DNA of 42,859 nt from Nitrospirae bacterium CG2_30_53_67. Its GTDB lineage: Bacteria; CG2-30-53-67. The position numbers and the translations under genes are program-made. Within the stretch, counting starts at the first letter, position 1; each line of letters begins with the position of its first letter. The stretch spans positions 1-42,859 of the forward strand of contig MNYV01000035.1 of the NCBI GenBank assembly GCA_001873285.1, given 5' to 3'. Under the pieces are notes generated by a model. The model was not told where the DNA came from. It made no database searches and was given only the letters and a program-made list of their open reading frames with translations. Positions 27,135 to 32,244 of this stretch are shown here, piece by piece.

Positions 27135-27163
27135 TTGACAAACTGACATAATTAATCTATAAT
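27135..27163 (+). promoter_or_regulatory. Perfect consensus sigma-70 promoter before the riboswitch
   Basis: TTGACA (27135-27140), exactly 17 bp, then TATAAT (27158-27163). The transcript would start near 27170 and enter the riboswitch about 40 nt later. Such a strong promoter fits control at the level of termination. The bases at 26992-27134 hold nothing I recognise. Confidence 0.88.
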
Positions 27164-27210
27164 AAAACTATAAGTCAGACAAAATGATATTATAAGTTAA
27201 AATAGTATTA

Positions 27211-27293
27211 TATCCACCGATAAAGGCGACCCGTCACGGGGAGCAAAGCCATGGGCCGGAAAATAAAGGCATCCATGGCTGCCGAAGTGGATA
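27211..27293 (+). promoter_or_regulatory. c-di-GMP-I (GEMM)-like riboswitch controlling sulfide:quinone oxidoreductase
   Basis: P1 pairs TATCCAC (27211-27217) with GTGGATA (27287-27293). Inside are AAAGGCGA, a short CCCG/CGGG hairpin, the conserved GAGCAAAGCC (GEMM consensus GACGCAAAGCC), a P3 stem ATGGGCC...GGC.AT.CCAT, and TGCCGA near the end. By alignment to Vc2, the ligand-reading base 20 would be G, as in c-di-GMP types. The first hairpin is shorter and lacks the usual GNRA tetraloop, so this may be a divergent member. GTGGATAGG (27287-27295) can instead pair with CCTATCCAT of the terminator, a clear antiterminator. Ligand binding should favour P1, free the terminator and switch the gene off. 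Confidence 0.7.
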
Positions 27294-27303
27294 GGAAATC
27301 AGG

Positions 27304-27344
27304 AAGGCCTATCCATAGAATTTTAGATGGATAGGCCTTTTTTT
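27304..27344 (+). terminator. Riboswitch-controlled intrinsic terminator
   Basis: A perfect 13-bp stem (AAGGCCTATCCAT with ATGGATAGGCCTT), a 10-nt loop and a T-run ending at 27344. It lies between promoter and SQR gene with no gene before it, so it must be a conditional terminator. Confidence 0.92.
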
Positions 27345-27384
27345 AATTTCGTTTTGATAACCGGCAGCAAAAGGAGAAAAGACC

Positions 27385-28641
27385 ATGAAACGACTTCTGA
27401 TCTTAGGGGCTGGCACAGCAGGAACCATGATGGCACACAAGATGCGCCGGAGACTCAAAGTCTCTGAATGGGACATCACCGTCATAGACAAAAGCGAAAA
27501 ACATTATTATCAACCGGGCCTGATTTTTGTTCCTTTCAAATTACACGGTTACACCGATGAAAAAGGAAGCGTGAAAAATACCAAGGATCTTCTCCCCAAG
27601 GACGTAAACTTTATAAATAAACCTATCACCCGACTCGACCCGGAAAATAACCGCGTGGAGACCGCAGATGAGTCGTTTGAGTATGATTGGCTGATCCTCG
27701 GCCTCGGCTGCAGGATCGCGCCGGAAGAGGTTCCGGGGCTTGAGGAAGGCTACGGCAAAAACGTATTTTATTACTATACCATGCCGTCAGCCCTGGATAT
27801 GCAGAAGGCCCTGGAGGATTTTGATGGAGGGAGGCTGGTCCTGAACATTGCAGAATATCCCATAAAGTGCCCGGTTGCGCCGATCGAGTTTATCTGCCTG
27901 GCCGACTACTTCTTTCACCTCAAAGGGATCCGCCATAAAGTGGACTTGGAAGTGGTCACCAGCGCGCAGGGAGTTTTTACCAAACCGGTGGCCGGACGTA
28001 TGCTGGGGGACATGTTCAAGGCAAAGGGGATCAAGGTAACCCCTAACTTCCCTGTGGCCGAGGTCCGTTCGGACCAGGGGAAGATCATCTCCCATGATGG
28101 GCAGGAGGTCCGTTTTGACTTCCTCGCCTCCATTCCGCCCAATGTGGGGGCGGAAGTCATCGATCAGGCCGGCATGGGAAATGGAAACGGCTATGCCCTC
28201 ACGCATCCGAACACCCTGAAATCCCAGAAGTACGACAACATCTATGTGATCGGCGACTGCACCAACGTCAATACCTCCAAGGCCGGATCCGTGGCCCACT
28301 TCGAGGCAGGAATCGTGGAGAGAAACCTCCTGAGGGAGATGGAAGGAAGGGCGCCGCTCCCGGATTTTGACGGGCACTCCAACTGTTTTATTGAAACCGG
28401 CTTCAAAAAGGCGCACTTGATTGATTTCAACTACAAGCAGGAGCCGATTCCCGGAAGATTCCCGCTCCCTACTTTCGGCCCCTTCTCATTGTTGAAAGAG
28501 ACACGGCTAAACCACATGGGAAAGCTCTTTTTCCGGTGGTTTTACTGGAATATGCTGCTGAGTGACTTGGTGGATCTGGAGATGATTATTCCTACGAGCA
28601 TGAGCTATCTCGGAAAGGATCTCTCATACGTAACAAAGTAG
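27385..28641 (+). CDS. sqr: Sulfide:quinone oxidoreductase
   Basis: 418 residues. FAD protein of the SQR family that oxidises sulfide at the membrane and passes electrons to quinone, releasing polysulfide or sulfane sulfur. FAD motif GAGTAGTMMAHKMRR at the start, a second one at YVIGDCTNV, and redox cysteine candidates in LGLGC, YPIKCPVAP and HSNCFIET. The C-terminal 60 residues are aromatic and amphipathic (KLFFRWFYWNMLLSDLV), fitting membrane attachment. The ribosome site is AAAGGAGAAAAG. The gene is alone behind the riboswitch, and the sulfur-carrier genes follow. The SQR subtype is not certain. Confidence 0.9.
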   Translation: MKRLLILGAGTAGTMMAHKMRRRLKVSEWDITVIDKSEKHYYQPGLIFVPFKLHGYTDEKGSVKNTKDLLPKDVNFINKPITRLDPENNRVETADESFEYDWLILGLGCRIAPEEVPGLEEGYGKNVFYYYTMPSALDMQKALEDFDGGRLVLNIAEYPIKCPVAPIEFICLADYFFHLKGIRHKVDLEVVTSAQGVFTKPVAGRMLGDMFKAKGIKVTPNFPVAEVRSDQGKIISHDGQEVRFDFLASIPPNVGAEVIDQAGMGNGNGYALTHPNTLKSQKYDNIYVIGDCTNVNTSKAGSVAHFEAGIVERNLLREMEGRAPLPDFDGHSNCFIETGFKKAHLIDFNYKQEPIPGRFPLPTFGPFSLLKETRLNHMGKLFFRWFYWNMLLSDLVDLEMIIPTSMSYLGKDLSYVTK

Positions 28642-28660: not shown

Positions 28661-28838
28661 CAGGCCGGCAGACAAGAGGCCCGTTCCGGAGATATGACGA
28701 AGCATCGTTTGACCAGGCGCTGTCCTTGAAAAACATGCCTCCTTGCCCGGTATGTCTCAAAGCCTTTCTTGAAATCATGGATGGCGCATGAGACGCATCG
28801 GCATATCTCCGGGACGGGCCGCAGAGTCTGCCGGCCTG
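28661..28838. repeat. Long imperfect palindrome, 178 bp
   Basis: The outer arms CAGGCCGGCAGAC (28661-28673) and GTCTGCCGGCCTG (28826-28838) are perfect inverted repeats. Pairing continues inward with GGCCCGT/ACGGGCC and CCGGAGATATG/CATATCTCCGG, about 37 bp per arm with a few mismatches. The inner 90 bp pair weakly and have no ORF. It lies between sqr and the Rrf2 gene and could be a non-autonomous mobile element, a structured RNA or an mRNA end. No T-run follows. The rest of 28642-29029 holds only the Rrf2 promoter and operator. Confidence 0.75.
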
Positions 28839-28957: not shown

Positions 28958-28985
28958 TTGACAGCCGGAAAAACTTGGTTATAAT
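28958..28985 (+). promoter_or_regulatory. Sigma-70 promoter of the Rrf2-isc operon
   Basis: TTGACA (28958-28963), a 16-bp spacer and TATAAT (28980-28985), about 45 bp before the Rrf2 start. Confidence 0.8.
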
Positions 28986-29029: not shown

Positions 29030-29449
29030 ATGAAACTCACACGGGCTGGAGAATATGGCATACGAGGAATGCTTTACCTGGCCATGCAGCCCAAGGATCG
29101 GGTGACGCTTCTCAGTGATATCTCCAATACCCAGAATATTCCTGAAAGTTATTTATCAAAAATTTTTCAGATACTGACCAAGGCCGGGCTCGTCCGATCC
29201 CACCGCGGGTTTAAAGGGGGATATACCCTTGGGCTCCCTCCGGAAGAGATCACGATCAAAGATATCATCGAAGGAATTGAAGGCCCCATTGCGCTAAACC
29301 GCTGTGCCATGGAAGAGAGCCTGTGCAGTGAGGACACCGGCTGCCGGATTCAGGATGTCTGGAAAGATGCTCAAAACGCCATGGTCGGCGTCCTCGCAGG
29401 GACTACCCTTGCGAATTTGGTGGAAAAGTCGTTGTCCGGAGGGTCATAA
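29030..29449 (+). CDS. Rrf2-family Fe-S regulator (IscR-like)
   Basis: 139 residues. Winged-helix Rrf2 protein (MKLTRAGEYGIRGMLYLA, then YLSKIFQILTKAGLVRSHRGFKGGY). Three cysteines in a 15-residue stretch near residues 89-102 (CAMEESLCSEDTGC) match the cluster-binding triad of IscR-type proteins. It probably senses Fe-S status or a related signal and controls the following iscS-iscU genes. An in-frame ATG eight codons upstream (29006) is less likely, because GGGAG lies correctly before 29030. Promoter and a dyad operator lie directly upstream. Confidence 0.9.
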   Translation: MKLTRAGEYGIRGMLYLAMQPKDRVTLLSDISNTQNIPESYLSKIFQILTKAGLVRSHRGFKGGYTLGLPPEEITIKDIIEGIEGPIALNRCAMEESLCSEDTGCRIQDVWKDAQNAMVGVLAGTTLANLVEKSLSGGS

Positions 29450-29489
29450 AGATCTCAAAAGAGGTCTTTCTCAGCAAAAGGAGCGCGCC

Positions 29490-30662
29490 ATGAACAGAAT
29501 CGTCTACCTTGATTATGCTGCATCTACACGCCCTTATCCCGAGGTCATTGAGGCCATGCAGCCCTTTTTTCTGGAGCATTTCGGGAACCCTTCCAGCTTC
29601 CATGTTTTCGGTACGGCCCCGAAGAAGGCTATCGAGCAGGCCAGAGCGGAATTGGCGGACCTCATCCATGCCAAACCTGAAGAGATCCTCTTCACGGCAT
29701 CCGGCACAGAGGCCAACAACCTGGCTGTCAAAGGGATTGCCATGGCCATGGAAAAGAAAGGAAAGCATATCATCACATCGGCCATTGAGCACTACGGTGT
29801 GCTTCATTCCTGCAAGATGCTGGAACGGCTGGGCTTCGAGATCACCTATCTCCCTGTGGACGAATATGGGATGGTAGACCCTGATGAGGTAGGCCGTTCC
29901 ATCAGGAAAGATACCATCCTGGTTTCCGTGATGCTGGCCAACCATGAAGTGGGAACCATCCAGCCGATCCGTGAAATTGCAGAAATCACACGCGGGAAAA
30001 AGATCCCCCTCCATTCCGACGCCCGCATGGCCGTGGGACATATCCCGGTCGACGTGGGAGCATTGGGCGTCGACCTGCTCACCATCTCAGGGCAGCACTT
30101 TTACGGACCCAAAGGGTCCGGCGCCCTTTTCATCAGTAGGGGGACCCGCATCCAGCCGCTGATCCACGGGGGCATACAGGAACAGGGGCGGAGAGCCGGC
30201 ACCGAAGATGTCCCCGCCATTGTCGGGCTGGGAAAAGCCTCGGTCATGGCAAAAGAAAAAATTCTTGAAGAGATGAAACGTATCGCCGCATTACGAAACA
30301 AACTGGAAAAGGGGCTGATCAATCAAATCGATGAATTGAAGGTGAATGGTCATCCGGAGAAACGTCTTCCCGGCTTTCTGAATATTTGCGTTAGATATGT
30401 GGAAGGTGAAGGGATGATCATGATGCTGGTCTCCAGGGGGATCATGGCGGCCAGCGGTTCAGCCTGTTCTTCCAAGGCATTGAAGGCGTCTCATGTATTG
30501 ACGGCCATGGGTGTGGACCATGCCACGGCACAGGGATCCCTCCTGTTCAGTCTCGGCAGGGAAACCCAAGAAGAAGATATTGATTATGTCCTTGCCGAGA
30601 TGCCCCCGGTCATTAAAAGGCTCAGAATGATGTCTCCCATCTATCCCGGGAATCGTTCCTGA
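29490..30662 (+). CDS. IscS/NifS-like protein lacking the PLP lysine
   Basis: 390 residues, clearly of the IscS/NifS fold (YLDYAASTRP, FTASGTEANNLAVKG, ANHEVGTIQPI). The segment that normally reads S-x-H-K-x-YGPKG is SGQHFYGPKG here, so the PLP-binding lysine is His203 and the preceding His is Gln202. Two further PLP contacts are changed: the second Asn of ANNExG is His152, and Gln of HxDAxQ is Met180. By contrast the sulfur-carrying loop is intact (ASGSACSS, Cys326), as are His101 and Asp177. Classical cysteine desulfurase activity is therefore unlikely. Archaeoglobus fulgidus IscS also lacks this lysine yet forms a complex with IscU. The ribosome site is AAAAGGAGCG. It lies 40 bp after the Rrf2 gene and 29 bp before iscU. 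Confidence 0.9.
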   Translation: MNRIVYLDYAASTRPYPEVIEAMQPFFLEHFGNPSSFHVFGTAPKKAIEQARAELADLIHAKPEEILFTASGTEANNLAVKGIAMAMEKKGKHIITSAIEHYGVLHSCKMLERLGFEITYLPVDEYGMVDPDEVGRSIRKDTILVSVMLANHEVGTIQPIREIAEITRGKKIPLHSDARMAVGHIPVDVGALGVDLLTISGQHFYGPKGSGALFISRGTRIQPLIHGGIQEQGRRAGTEDVPAIVGLGKASVMAKEKILEEMKRIAALRNKLEKGLINQIDELKVNGHPEKRLPGFLNICVRYVEGEGMIMMLVSRGIMAASGSACSSKALKASHVLTAMGVDHATAQGSLLFSLGRETQEEDIDYVLAEMPPVIKRLRMMSPIYPGNRS

Positions 30663-30691: not shown

Positions 30692-31084
30692 ATGCAGCAT
30701 TCAGATTACAGTGAAAAGGTCATGGACCATTTTAATAATCCCAGAAACATGGGGGAAATCCGGAATCCGGATGGAGAAAGCCAGGTCGGAAATCCAACCT
30801 GCGGGGATATGATGCAGATCCAGATCAAGGTGGAGGATGGCAAGATCAAGGAGGCCAAGTTCAAGACCTTCGGCTGTGTTGCGGCCATTGCCACCAGCAG
30901 CATTTCAACGGAAATGATTATCGGAAAGACCCTTGAAGAGGCTGAAAAACTGACCAACGATGCCGTGGCCCTGGCTCTTGACGGGCTTCCTGCGCATAAG
31001 CGGCATTGCTCGGTTTTGGCGGCGGAGGCTATCCAGGCCGCCATCCAGAACTACCGGGAACATGCCCTCGGCGGCGCGAAATAA
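30692..31084 (+). CDS. iscU: Fe-S cluster scaffold IscU
   Basis: 130 residues. Scaffold on which 2Fe-2S clusters are built. All three ligand cysteines are present (NPTCGD, FGCVAAIATSS, HKRHCSVLAAEA), with the regulatory Asp two residues after the first. It begins YSEKVMDHFNNPRNMG like most IscU proteins. It has an AAAGGAGAAG ribosome site and follows the lysine-less IscS-like gene. IscA, HscA/HscB and ferredoxin of the classical isc operon are missing, so this is a minimal pair. Confidence 0.95.
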   Translation: MQHSDYSEKVMDHFNNPRNMGEIRNPDGESQVGNPTCGDMMQIQIKVEDGKIKEAKFKTFGCVAAIATSSISTEMIIGKTLEEAEKLTNDAVALALDGLPAHKRHCSVLAAEAIQAAIQNYREHALGGAK

Positions 31085-31102
31085 AAATAAAAAGGAACCT
31101 GT

Positions 31103-31498
31103 ATGGCGGAAAAAATGGCCCTGATCGTCTTCAGCAATGAGATTGACAAACTGATCGCTACCTTTAATCTTGCCTTGGGCGGGGCTTCCATGGGGATGGA
31201 TGTGGTTCTCTTCTTCACCTTTTGGGGGCTCGAACTCCTAAAAAAAGACAAGACCGGAGACAGTTATCAGAAACCGAATCCTTCACTGGAGAAGATGATG
31301 GCCCATCCTAAGTTTCCATCCATCGACCAGATGGTGAAGATGTGCAAGGAGATGGGGGTCAAGTTTATCGCCTGCACACAATCCATGGAATTCATGGGAC
31401 TCACCAAGGATGATCTCCTCCCTGTGGTGGACAGTATAGCCGGCGTTGCAACGTTCCTGGCCGATGCTGAAAACGCTAAAATCAATCTTCTGATATAA
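31103..31498 (+). CDS. DsrE2-like sulfur-carrier protein
   Basis: 131 residues. It resembles the DsrE/DsrF/DsrH superfamily, subgroup DsrE2: N-terminal LIVFSNEIDKLIATFNLA, long DVVLFFTFWGLELL strand region, and the C-terminal FIACTQSMEFMGLTKDDLL with Cys91 in the usual redox position. A second Cys81 lies ten residues before. Such proteins hold persulfides and pass sulfur to TusA. It lies 18 bp after iscU and 15 bp before tusA, so it is in the same operon. Confidence 0.85.
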   Translation: MAEKMALIVFSNEIDKLIATFNLALGGASMGMDVVLFFTFWGLELLKKDKTGDSYQKPNPSLEKMMAHPKFPSIDQMVKMCKEMGVKFIACTQSMEFMGLTKDDLLPVVDSIAGVATFLADAENAKINLLI

Positions 31499-31513
31499 GG
31501 TAAGGAGGAAGCA

Positions 31514-31816
31514 ATGGGAACAAAGCAAACGACAGCCGTAAAAGCGGATGTAGTCCTTGACGCCTTTGGATTGATCTGCCCGATGCCGATCGCCAAGACC
31601 TGTCAGGCCATCAAGGGAATGGAGGTCGGACAGGTCCTGGAGGTCATCGCCGACGACCAGGGAATCGTTGAGGATATGCCGAGCTGGTGCCATACCACGG
31701 GGAATGAATTCCTCGGGATTGCGGAAGACCATGGTGAATATCATGCCTTCGTACGTAAGAGAGTCATCGACAGCAAAGAATGCCGTAGGCCCCCATGCAA
31801 TCATCCGTCTCAATAA
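31514..31816 (+). CDS. tusA: TusA family sulfurtransferase
   Basis: 100 residues. Small sulfur-relay protein with the hallmark CPxP motif (LICPMPIAKT, active Cys22). It carries persulfide sulfur between DsrE-type proteins and acceptors. The N-terminus VVLDAFGLICPMP and the middle GQVLEVIADDQGIVEDMPSWC are typical. A tail of about 20 residues with two extra cysteines (KECRRPPCNH) is unusual. The ribosome site is AAGGAGG. It ends the isc-dsrE-tusA run. Confidence 0.9.
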   Translation: MGTKQTTAVKADVVLDAFGLICPMPIAKTCQAIKGMEVGQVLEVIADDQGIVEDMPSWCHTTGNEFLGIAEDHGEYHAFVRKRVIDSKECRRPPCNHPSQ

Positions 31817-31887: not shown

Positions 31888-32244
31888 ATGTCCGAAAAGA
31901 GAAGGGTTGCAAGAAAGATCAGCCGGACCAGAATCAGGTTCGGACAAGGCCGATGTGACAAAACCGCATTTACCAGCAACCTTTCAGTCAACGGCTTCTT
32001 TATTCGAACCAACCGGCCCTTTGCCCCGGGAACCCTGCTCGAGTTCGAGATAGATCATCCCAACGGCCATGTAATCCGTCTGGAGGGGCAGGTCGTGCAT
32101 GCCAGCCGTACCCTGGCGTCAATCTCCAGGGTCCGCCGGAGCGGAATGGGGATTGAACTCTTGGAAAAACCCGAAGAATATCTTGACTATCTTAAAAATC
32201 TAAGAAAAACGACCATCAGAGAAGAACCTGAAGACCCATCCTAA
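31888..32244 (+). CDS. PilZ-domain protein
   Basis: 118 residues, a single PilZ domain. Both c-di-GMP-binding signatures are visible: the RxxxR motif (Arg5 to Arg9 in EKRRVARK) and the (D/N)xSxxG motif (NLSVNG, Asn31-Gly36). It should bind c-di-GMP and act on a partner protein. The gene follows tusA by 71 bp and may be co-transcribed. This matters because sqr upstream has a c-di-GMP-I-like riboswitch. The stop codon lies in the direct repeat that borders the next MITE. Confidence 0.85.
   Translation: MSEKRRVARKISRTRIRFGQGRCDKTAFTSNLSVNGFFIRTNRPFAPGTLLEFEIDHPNGHVIRLEGQVVHASRTLASISRVRRSGMGIELLEKPEEYLDYLKNLRKTTIREEPEDPS

Follow-up and report, generated by a model that had tools for sequence, protein, structure and literature searches.

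A candidate compact GEMM-I riboswitch in the leader of a sulfide:quinone reductase gene

The type III sulfide:quinone reductase (SQR) gene of Nitrospirae bacterium CG2_30_53_67 is preceded by a leader that is probably (we put this at roughly 0.7) a riboswitch of a compact GEMM-I subtype, which would sense c-di-GMP and turn SQR off by transcription termination. Judged from sequence, P1, antiterminator and terminator share strands in the manner of an OFF switch; ligand binding and the direction of control are what we infer. The kind of switch, GEMM-I, is known, and the compact variant appears to be one that we have not found described. All positions refer to the window, the whole 42,859-nucleotide stretch of DNA analysed, and the promoters, RNA elements and genes described lie on its forward strand.

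Results

Architecture of the SQR leader

The promoter (27135–27163) matches the consensus at 12 of 12 positions, with TTGACA at 27135–27140, a spacer of 17 nt and TATAAT at 27158–27163; in the relative G001 both hexamers are retained and the spacer is longer. In the MFE folds, the P1 5′ strand (27211–27219), made up of TATCCAC (27211–27217) followed by C27218 and G27219, pairs with 27283–27284 and 27287–27293 within a 3′ strand (27283–27293) that includes GTGGATA (27287–27293). An intrinsic terminator (27304–27344) follows, consisting of a perfect 13-bp hairpin (27304–27316 with 27327–27339), a 10-nt loop and a T run, and a ribosome binding site, AAAGGAG, can be read directly at 27370–27376. 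Between these elements, 27287–27295, shared with P1, can pair with 27308–27316, shared with the terminator, through eight Watson-Crick pairs and one G·U pair. This antiterminator would consume the entire outer P1 3′ strand together with nine bases of the 13-base 5′ arm of the terminator. An earlier note on this DNA had described a perfect promoter, a fold closed by TATCCAC/GTGGATA, a 13-bp terminator and a 9-bp antiterminator excluding both P1 and terminator, and each of these was recovered at the positions given here.

The predicted stability of the leader (27205–27345; −57.9 kcal/mol, z −6.25) was equalled in 0 of 200 shuffles, as was that of the aptamer alone (z −3.36; 0 of 200). When 27294–27384 was dinucleotide-shuffled 5000 times, 14 shuffles contained an 8-nt stretch complementary to the 3′ region of P1 and 10 a perfect 10-bp hairpin, and none contained both. 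A pattern-based terminator scan called none in the leader because its loop limit is 8, against the 10-nt loop here.

In folding calculations, the transcript of the window ending after the antiterminator adopts the antiterminator fold (−39.8), and the full-length transcript adopts P1 and the terminator, at −57.9 versus −44.9 kcal/mol with the antiterminator forced. These calculated energetics resemble those of a kinetically controlled switch. The antiterminator formed in the cut transcripts of four of five orthologs (the window, G001, G003 and G004) and was not obtained in the folding calculation for the cut transcript of G005; the full G004 leader, with a repeated terminator arm and a P1 mismatch, folds without P1. 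Terminators of the same design are present in all four relatives (G001, G005, G003 and G004).

We propose that, at low ligand, 27287–27295 would leave P1 and pair with 27308–27316, blocking the terminator and allowing SQR to be transcribed. With c-di-GMP bound, P1 would be held and 27308–27316 left free for the terminator, and transcription would stop before the gene. Since the terminator becomes available when ligand holds P1, the switch would be of the OFF type, with SQR on at low c-di-GMP and silenced at high c-di-GMP.

Assignment of the aptamer to the GEMM-I clan

No Rfam family reached its gathering score in the window. At a lowered threshold, RF03167 (c-di-GMP-I-GGC) matched the whole element with 38.9 bits against a cut-off of 59 (E-values of 6.5e-8 for 301 bases and 1.2e-7 for the genome), and RF01051 scored 31.8 bits against a cut-off of 35 (E 2.1e-4 in the genome). 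The search with RF01051 and its relatives that the earlier note proposed thus yielded a covariance match to the clan, at scores under the curated cut-offs, and membership of the aptamer in the c-di-GMP-I (GEMM-I) clan is supported by sequence at a level below both of them.

The bases G20, A47 and C92 recognise the ligand (PMC4744006, PMC3764141), and A48 is added to them in the available part of PMC3764141. The G20 equivalent lies at 27225, placed by our alignment A3 and by direct register; the ligand-stacking A47, A48 and A49 equivalents lie at 27245–27247 (A47 being A27245 and A48 being A27246); and the equivalent of C92, which pairs in Watson-Crick fashion with a ligand guanine (PMC4744006, PMC3764141, both in excerpt), lies at 27282. 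All six compact elements described below carry G20, A47 and C92, and the binding site predicted for the window element matches that of ordinary c-di-GMP aptamers. The clan match and these canonical bases lend support to the earlier reading of the aptamer as c-di-GMP-I-like.

The A20 that marks GEMM-Ib (cGAMP) aptamers is absent, its place being taken by G27225. Membership of RF03167 in the strict sense was rejected: the family consensus, GCGAA, has G at position 47, which is absent from the window (GCAAA at 27243–27247) and from all elements read in the phylum, where A stands at this position in 39 of 39 (L087 read by eye). We take the 'GGC' in the family name to denote positions 20/47/92. Matches to sau-5971 (29.7 bits, cut-off 90), salivarius-1 and mir-590 were dropped, as they mirror the terminator hairpin alone.

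A compact subtype with a matched change at the interhelical pair

P2 (27226–27244) is shortened to GC/GC, a 2×2 internal loop (GA/GA) and 3–4 bp closed by a TCA triloop, in agreement with the short first hairpin without a GNRA loop described earlier. P3 (27248–27279) folds into 7 bp, an AT bulge and 3 bp with a 10-nt loop, and shows two double-sided pair changes among five sequences. Neither a GNRA tetraloop in P2 nor a receptor in P3 is present at the window element. The P2 internal loop, 3×3 (AAA/GAC) elsewhere, is 2×2 (RA/GA) in the compact form, and all six compact elements share the short P2 without a GNRA loop, GGGGAGCAAAGCC and the AT bulge in P3.

The conserved C44-G83 pair brings P2 and P3 into a parallel arrangement (PMC3764141, in excerpt). 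Here, it is replaced by A27242, the A44 equivalent, and U27272, a bulged base equivalent to U83 according to alignment A3 and the folds, and the two are still able to pair. We propose that A44-U83 would keep P2 and P3 alongside one another without tetraloop docking, the role that C44-G83 has elsewhere. With tetraloop and receptor both gone and the internal loop shrunk, the losses fit together. On this comparison, the absence of the GNRA loop belongs to a coherent remodelling that includes the change from C44-G83 to A44-U83 and has been kept in relatives. On these features, we regard the RNA as a distinct compact subtype of the GEMM-I aptamer.

Position 44, read directly from each element and not from A3, is A in six of 39 elements, the compact ones, and C in the other 33 (one row by eye: L087, with C44 and A47). 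Position 83, read by eye from P3 folds, is G in 32 of the 33 non-compact elements, with L089 ambiguous; reading it in L101 and L104 needed sequence beyond the model's cut. Alignment A3 is fitted to R1, a model built from five compact elements, and is out of register or gapped at 44/83 in L078, L079, L087, L103, L105, L089, L081 and L073. Its 32 distinct rows hold CG in 18, AU in six, other combinations in five and a gap in three, these last two groups being mostly out of register. The covariation score of 44/83 (0.435) was reached in 0 of 500 shuffles, and sliding the columns by 1–3 gave at most 0.016. A44-U83 is a single inherited change and not a repeated one, but both bases of the tertiary pair changed to match, at the place that the fold predicts. 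Taken on its own, the compact set gives a thin covariation signal, with double-sided changes in two of 24 pairs, which 70 of 500 shuffles equalled; P1 is nearly invariant, as expected of a strand shared with the antiterminator.

Distribution of the compact form and history of the locus

Our class sample comprises eight genomes, which here make up the whole phylum. RF03167 at E ≤ 0.001 finds 39 elements in seven of them, including the six compact elements: that of the window, one each in G001, G003 and G004, and two near-identical copies in G005. A seventh copy, in G002, has decayed and lost its P1 5′ strand. R1 scores the six intact elements at 92–111 bits, the decayed copy at 52.6 and the other matches listed at 46.6 or less. 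R1 was searched against the eight phylum genomes, 386 relatives, 395 genomes of the phylum of G030, 82 of that of G052 and 95 of that of G092, in partly overlapping sets and, for the large searches, with stricter filters that lose weak matches; the 82 genomes of the G052 phylum gave no match. Outside matches were examined at the 35 loci with a stored locus (L139–L149 and L152–L175), of which 33 carry C44 (32 as scored; L145, scored 'G', has C44 by eye) and two remain, L163 lying in the wrong place and L164 not being parsed. No compact form was found among the 33 outside loci readable at position 44. As these outside matches are canonical, the compact form is, by its sequence signature and within the genomes searched, confined to one family of the phylum and to one locus.

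SQR orthologs preceded by the compact element are found in G001 (93% identical) and G005 (81% identical). Over the 83 columns of the aptamer, G001 is identical at 76 and G005 at 73; upstream of the aptamer, G001 matches at 74 of 162. In G003, the compact element stands before a PIN-domain gene, with Rrf2-NifS beyond it, and in G004 it stands before an HD_5 gene; neither genome has an SQR ortholog. G005 carries a counterpart of the HD_5 gene directly after SQR. HD_5 is the fold used by HD-GYP phosphodiesterases, and the HD_5 gene may be a second target of the element. The element is absent from the SQR orthologs of the sister family, in G006 (64% identical) and G007 (63%). These arrangements would be most simply explained if the element stood ahead of SQR in an ancestor and SQR was then lost on more than one occasion. 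Since the element is kept in G003 and G004 without an SQR ortholog, it is not tied to SQR alone, and its distribution in these two genomes and in G006 and G007 weakens the case that the switch serves SQR only.

The SQR gene and its surroundings

The gene downstream (27385–28641) was claimed to encode a sulfide:quinone oxidoreductase, and this holds: NF049943 matches with 554.7 bits against a cut-off of 525, and Cys162 and Cys334, within IKCPVAP and SNCFIETG, align with cysteines of human SQOR that we take to be the catalytic pair. NF049943 is named for a selenoprotein subtype; no in-frame TGA occurs in 27385–28641. Upstream of the locus in a near relative, a SECIS_3 match (L010:246–304; 41.6 bits, cut-off 63) hints at a selenoprotein. 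All eight genomes of the class contain dsrA above cut-off, which places SQR in a dissimilatory sulfite reductase background; the genome of the window has two such matches, on C147 and C37 (577 and 488 bits), and two copies are also present in six of the seven others.

Between SQR and the next gene lies a long imperfect inverted repeat (28661–28838; 29 nt at 86% and 13 nt perfect) that resembles a small mobile element or a hairpin element. A second promoter-like site, TTGACA-16 nt-TATAAT, can be read directly at 28958–28985 before an Rrf2-family regulator gene (29030–29449; TIGR00738, start codon chosen by eye). It is followed by a NifS-like cysteine desulfurase gene (29304–30662), whose true start must be later than 29304 because the profile match begins at residue 67, and by NifU, DsrE-like and TusA genes (30692–31816; profile matches). 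Because of this promoter, we claim riboswitch control for SQR alone; by their position, the nif/sulfur genes may have a transcript of their own.

After TusA comes a gene for a protein with a PilZ domain, a c-di-GMP receptor domain (31888–32244; PF07238, 37.3 bits), which has RRVAR and NLSVNG in keeping with the PilZ motifs RxxxR and NxSxxG and forms a second c-di-GMP link near the SQR locus. Together with 13 GGDEF matches in the genome, this adjoining protein makes c-di-GMP signalling plausible.

Other GEMM-I elements and a candidate cGAMP synthase

Other elements of this genome and of the phylum carry the A20 mark, before surface proteins. One GGDEF domain of the genome (C76:18932–19405; L113) has as its best PDB match 6d9m, an endolysin-GGDEF fusion, with which it shares GHLVGSQ including the Ser; an endolysin fusion with a Geobacter Hypr enzyme is described in the accessible part of PMC6456294. 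From this likeness, the domain apparently belongs to the Hypr type, which produces cGAMP in Geobacter, and its presence suggests cGAMP synthesis in the phylum.

Tandem GEMM-I pairs stand before FN3/PKD-type surface proteins in relatives (L101:435–535 and 647–797; L097, L080, L096, L091 and L104). The upstream element has G20 and an OFF-type terminator; about 200 nt on, the second is of the ON type, its own 3′ strand lying within the terminator, and has A20 in five of six pairs and G20 in L080. Their sequences suggest a 'NOT c-di-GMP AND cGAMP' gate, which is absent from Table 2 in the available portion of PMC9481103. A further pair lies near a contig end in the genome of the window (G000:C82; L003), where the contig includes no more of the upstream element than its 3′ end. 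At L076, L082, L083, L085, L100, L103, L105 and others, GEMM-I elements precede CxxCH (cytochrome-like), secreted and response-regulator proteins, with ORF starts judged by eye. In L075, L077 and L094, G21-C46 and C22 are replaced by C21-G46 and T22 (AAGCT ... CGGAAAG), adjoining the ligand site.

Discussion

Some points against c-di-GMP as the ligand come from the aptamer itself. A23, G32, A35, C44 and G83, highly conserved according to the available part of PMC3764141, are changed in the window, and P2 has no tetraloop. In the accessible part of PMC9262584, the P2 tetraloop interaction is one of two sources of stabilisation, and the Cd1 mutants A24-26U and C81A showed no binding, so that on the evidence of these two papers the tetraloop-less P2 and the changed positions count against a c-di-GMP riboswitch. 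The same OFF switch could instead respond to 3′,3′-cGAMP or to either dinucleotide, given the Hypr-like GGDEF enzyme in the genome (C76:18932–19405), the A20 (cGAMP) type in nine of 39 phylum elements, and the description of position 20 as a selectivity factor and no hard filter (PMC9262584, in excerpt). We consider this unlikely, however, as G20 is present in all six compact elements and, in the part of PMC9481103 available, in-line probing showed that the G form strongly favoured c-di-GMP and that the A form shifted towards c-AMP-GMP.

It is a little harder to credit that the aptamer derives from GEMM-I and has changed its ligand, the remodelled P2 and P3 forming a new specificity class. Internal loop, tetraloop, P3 bulge and interhelical pair are altered together, and the subtype is restricted to one locus in the genomes searched, but the ligand-contacting bases, which would be expected to change first, are unchanged. 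Least probable in our estimate is a decayed or ligand-blind leader, an attenuator that terminates without a small molecule. The decay of the G002 copy (52.6 bits versus 92–111 for the six others) and the survival of the element without SQR in G003 and G004 would suit it; against it, the core of the aptamer has changed less than the sequence around it, beside genes 81–93% identical, and the contact bases are invariant though an attenuator would not need them. We therefore prefer a c-di-GMP-sensing OFF switch.

If this RNA binds c-di-GMP, the tetraloop contact and C44-G83, listed as highly conserved, are replaceable in nature, curated Rfam searches miss members, and the element offers a small natural aptamer for structural and biosensor work. 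Control of sulfide oxidation would then pass directly to a second messenger whose usual role is in lifestyle decisions. A bolder idea, which we hold to be doubtful, is that the compact element founds a separate class of the GEMM-I clan, tetraloop-free and based on A44-U83, distinct in ligand preference or in affinity range and acting on sulfide oxidation; a second messenger would then directly decide sulfide oxidation in a bacterium that bears sulfite reductase. Our literature search found no paper joining a riboswitch and sulfide quinone oxidoreductase, a weak negative, as the colon-spelled enzyme name was outside the search.

Among known riboswitches, the element shares with RF01051, for example V. 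cholerae Vc2, the P1/P2/P3 three-way fold, G20, A47 and C92, the G21-C46 and C22-G45 pairs and a possible interhelical Watson-Crick pair at 44-83. It differs in scoring 31.8 bits (cut-off 35), in having A44-U83 instead of C44-G83 and a 2×2 instead of a 3×3 P2 loop, and in lacking the GNRA tetraloop, the receptor and the bulged A in P3. A receptor-less 'type II' exists, but with a GYRA loop (PMC11218506). RF03167 is the best-scoring Rfam family, with a full-length match, J1-2 AAAGGC and the 3′ TGCCGAAG in common, but at 38.9 bits against a cut-off of 59, and with GCGAA (G47) in the family where the window has A47. The Geobacter cGAMP riboswitches (GEMM-Ib) belong to the same clan; the window differs from these riboswitches by G20. 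C. difficile Cd1 likewise places a c-di-GMP-I aptamer on a terminating OFF platform (PMC9262584, in excerpt); it differs in possessing the tetraloop-receptor contact and in having flagellar genes under its control.
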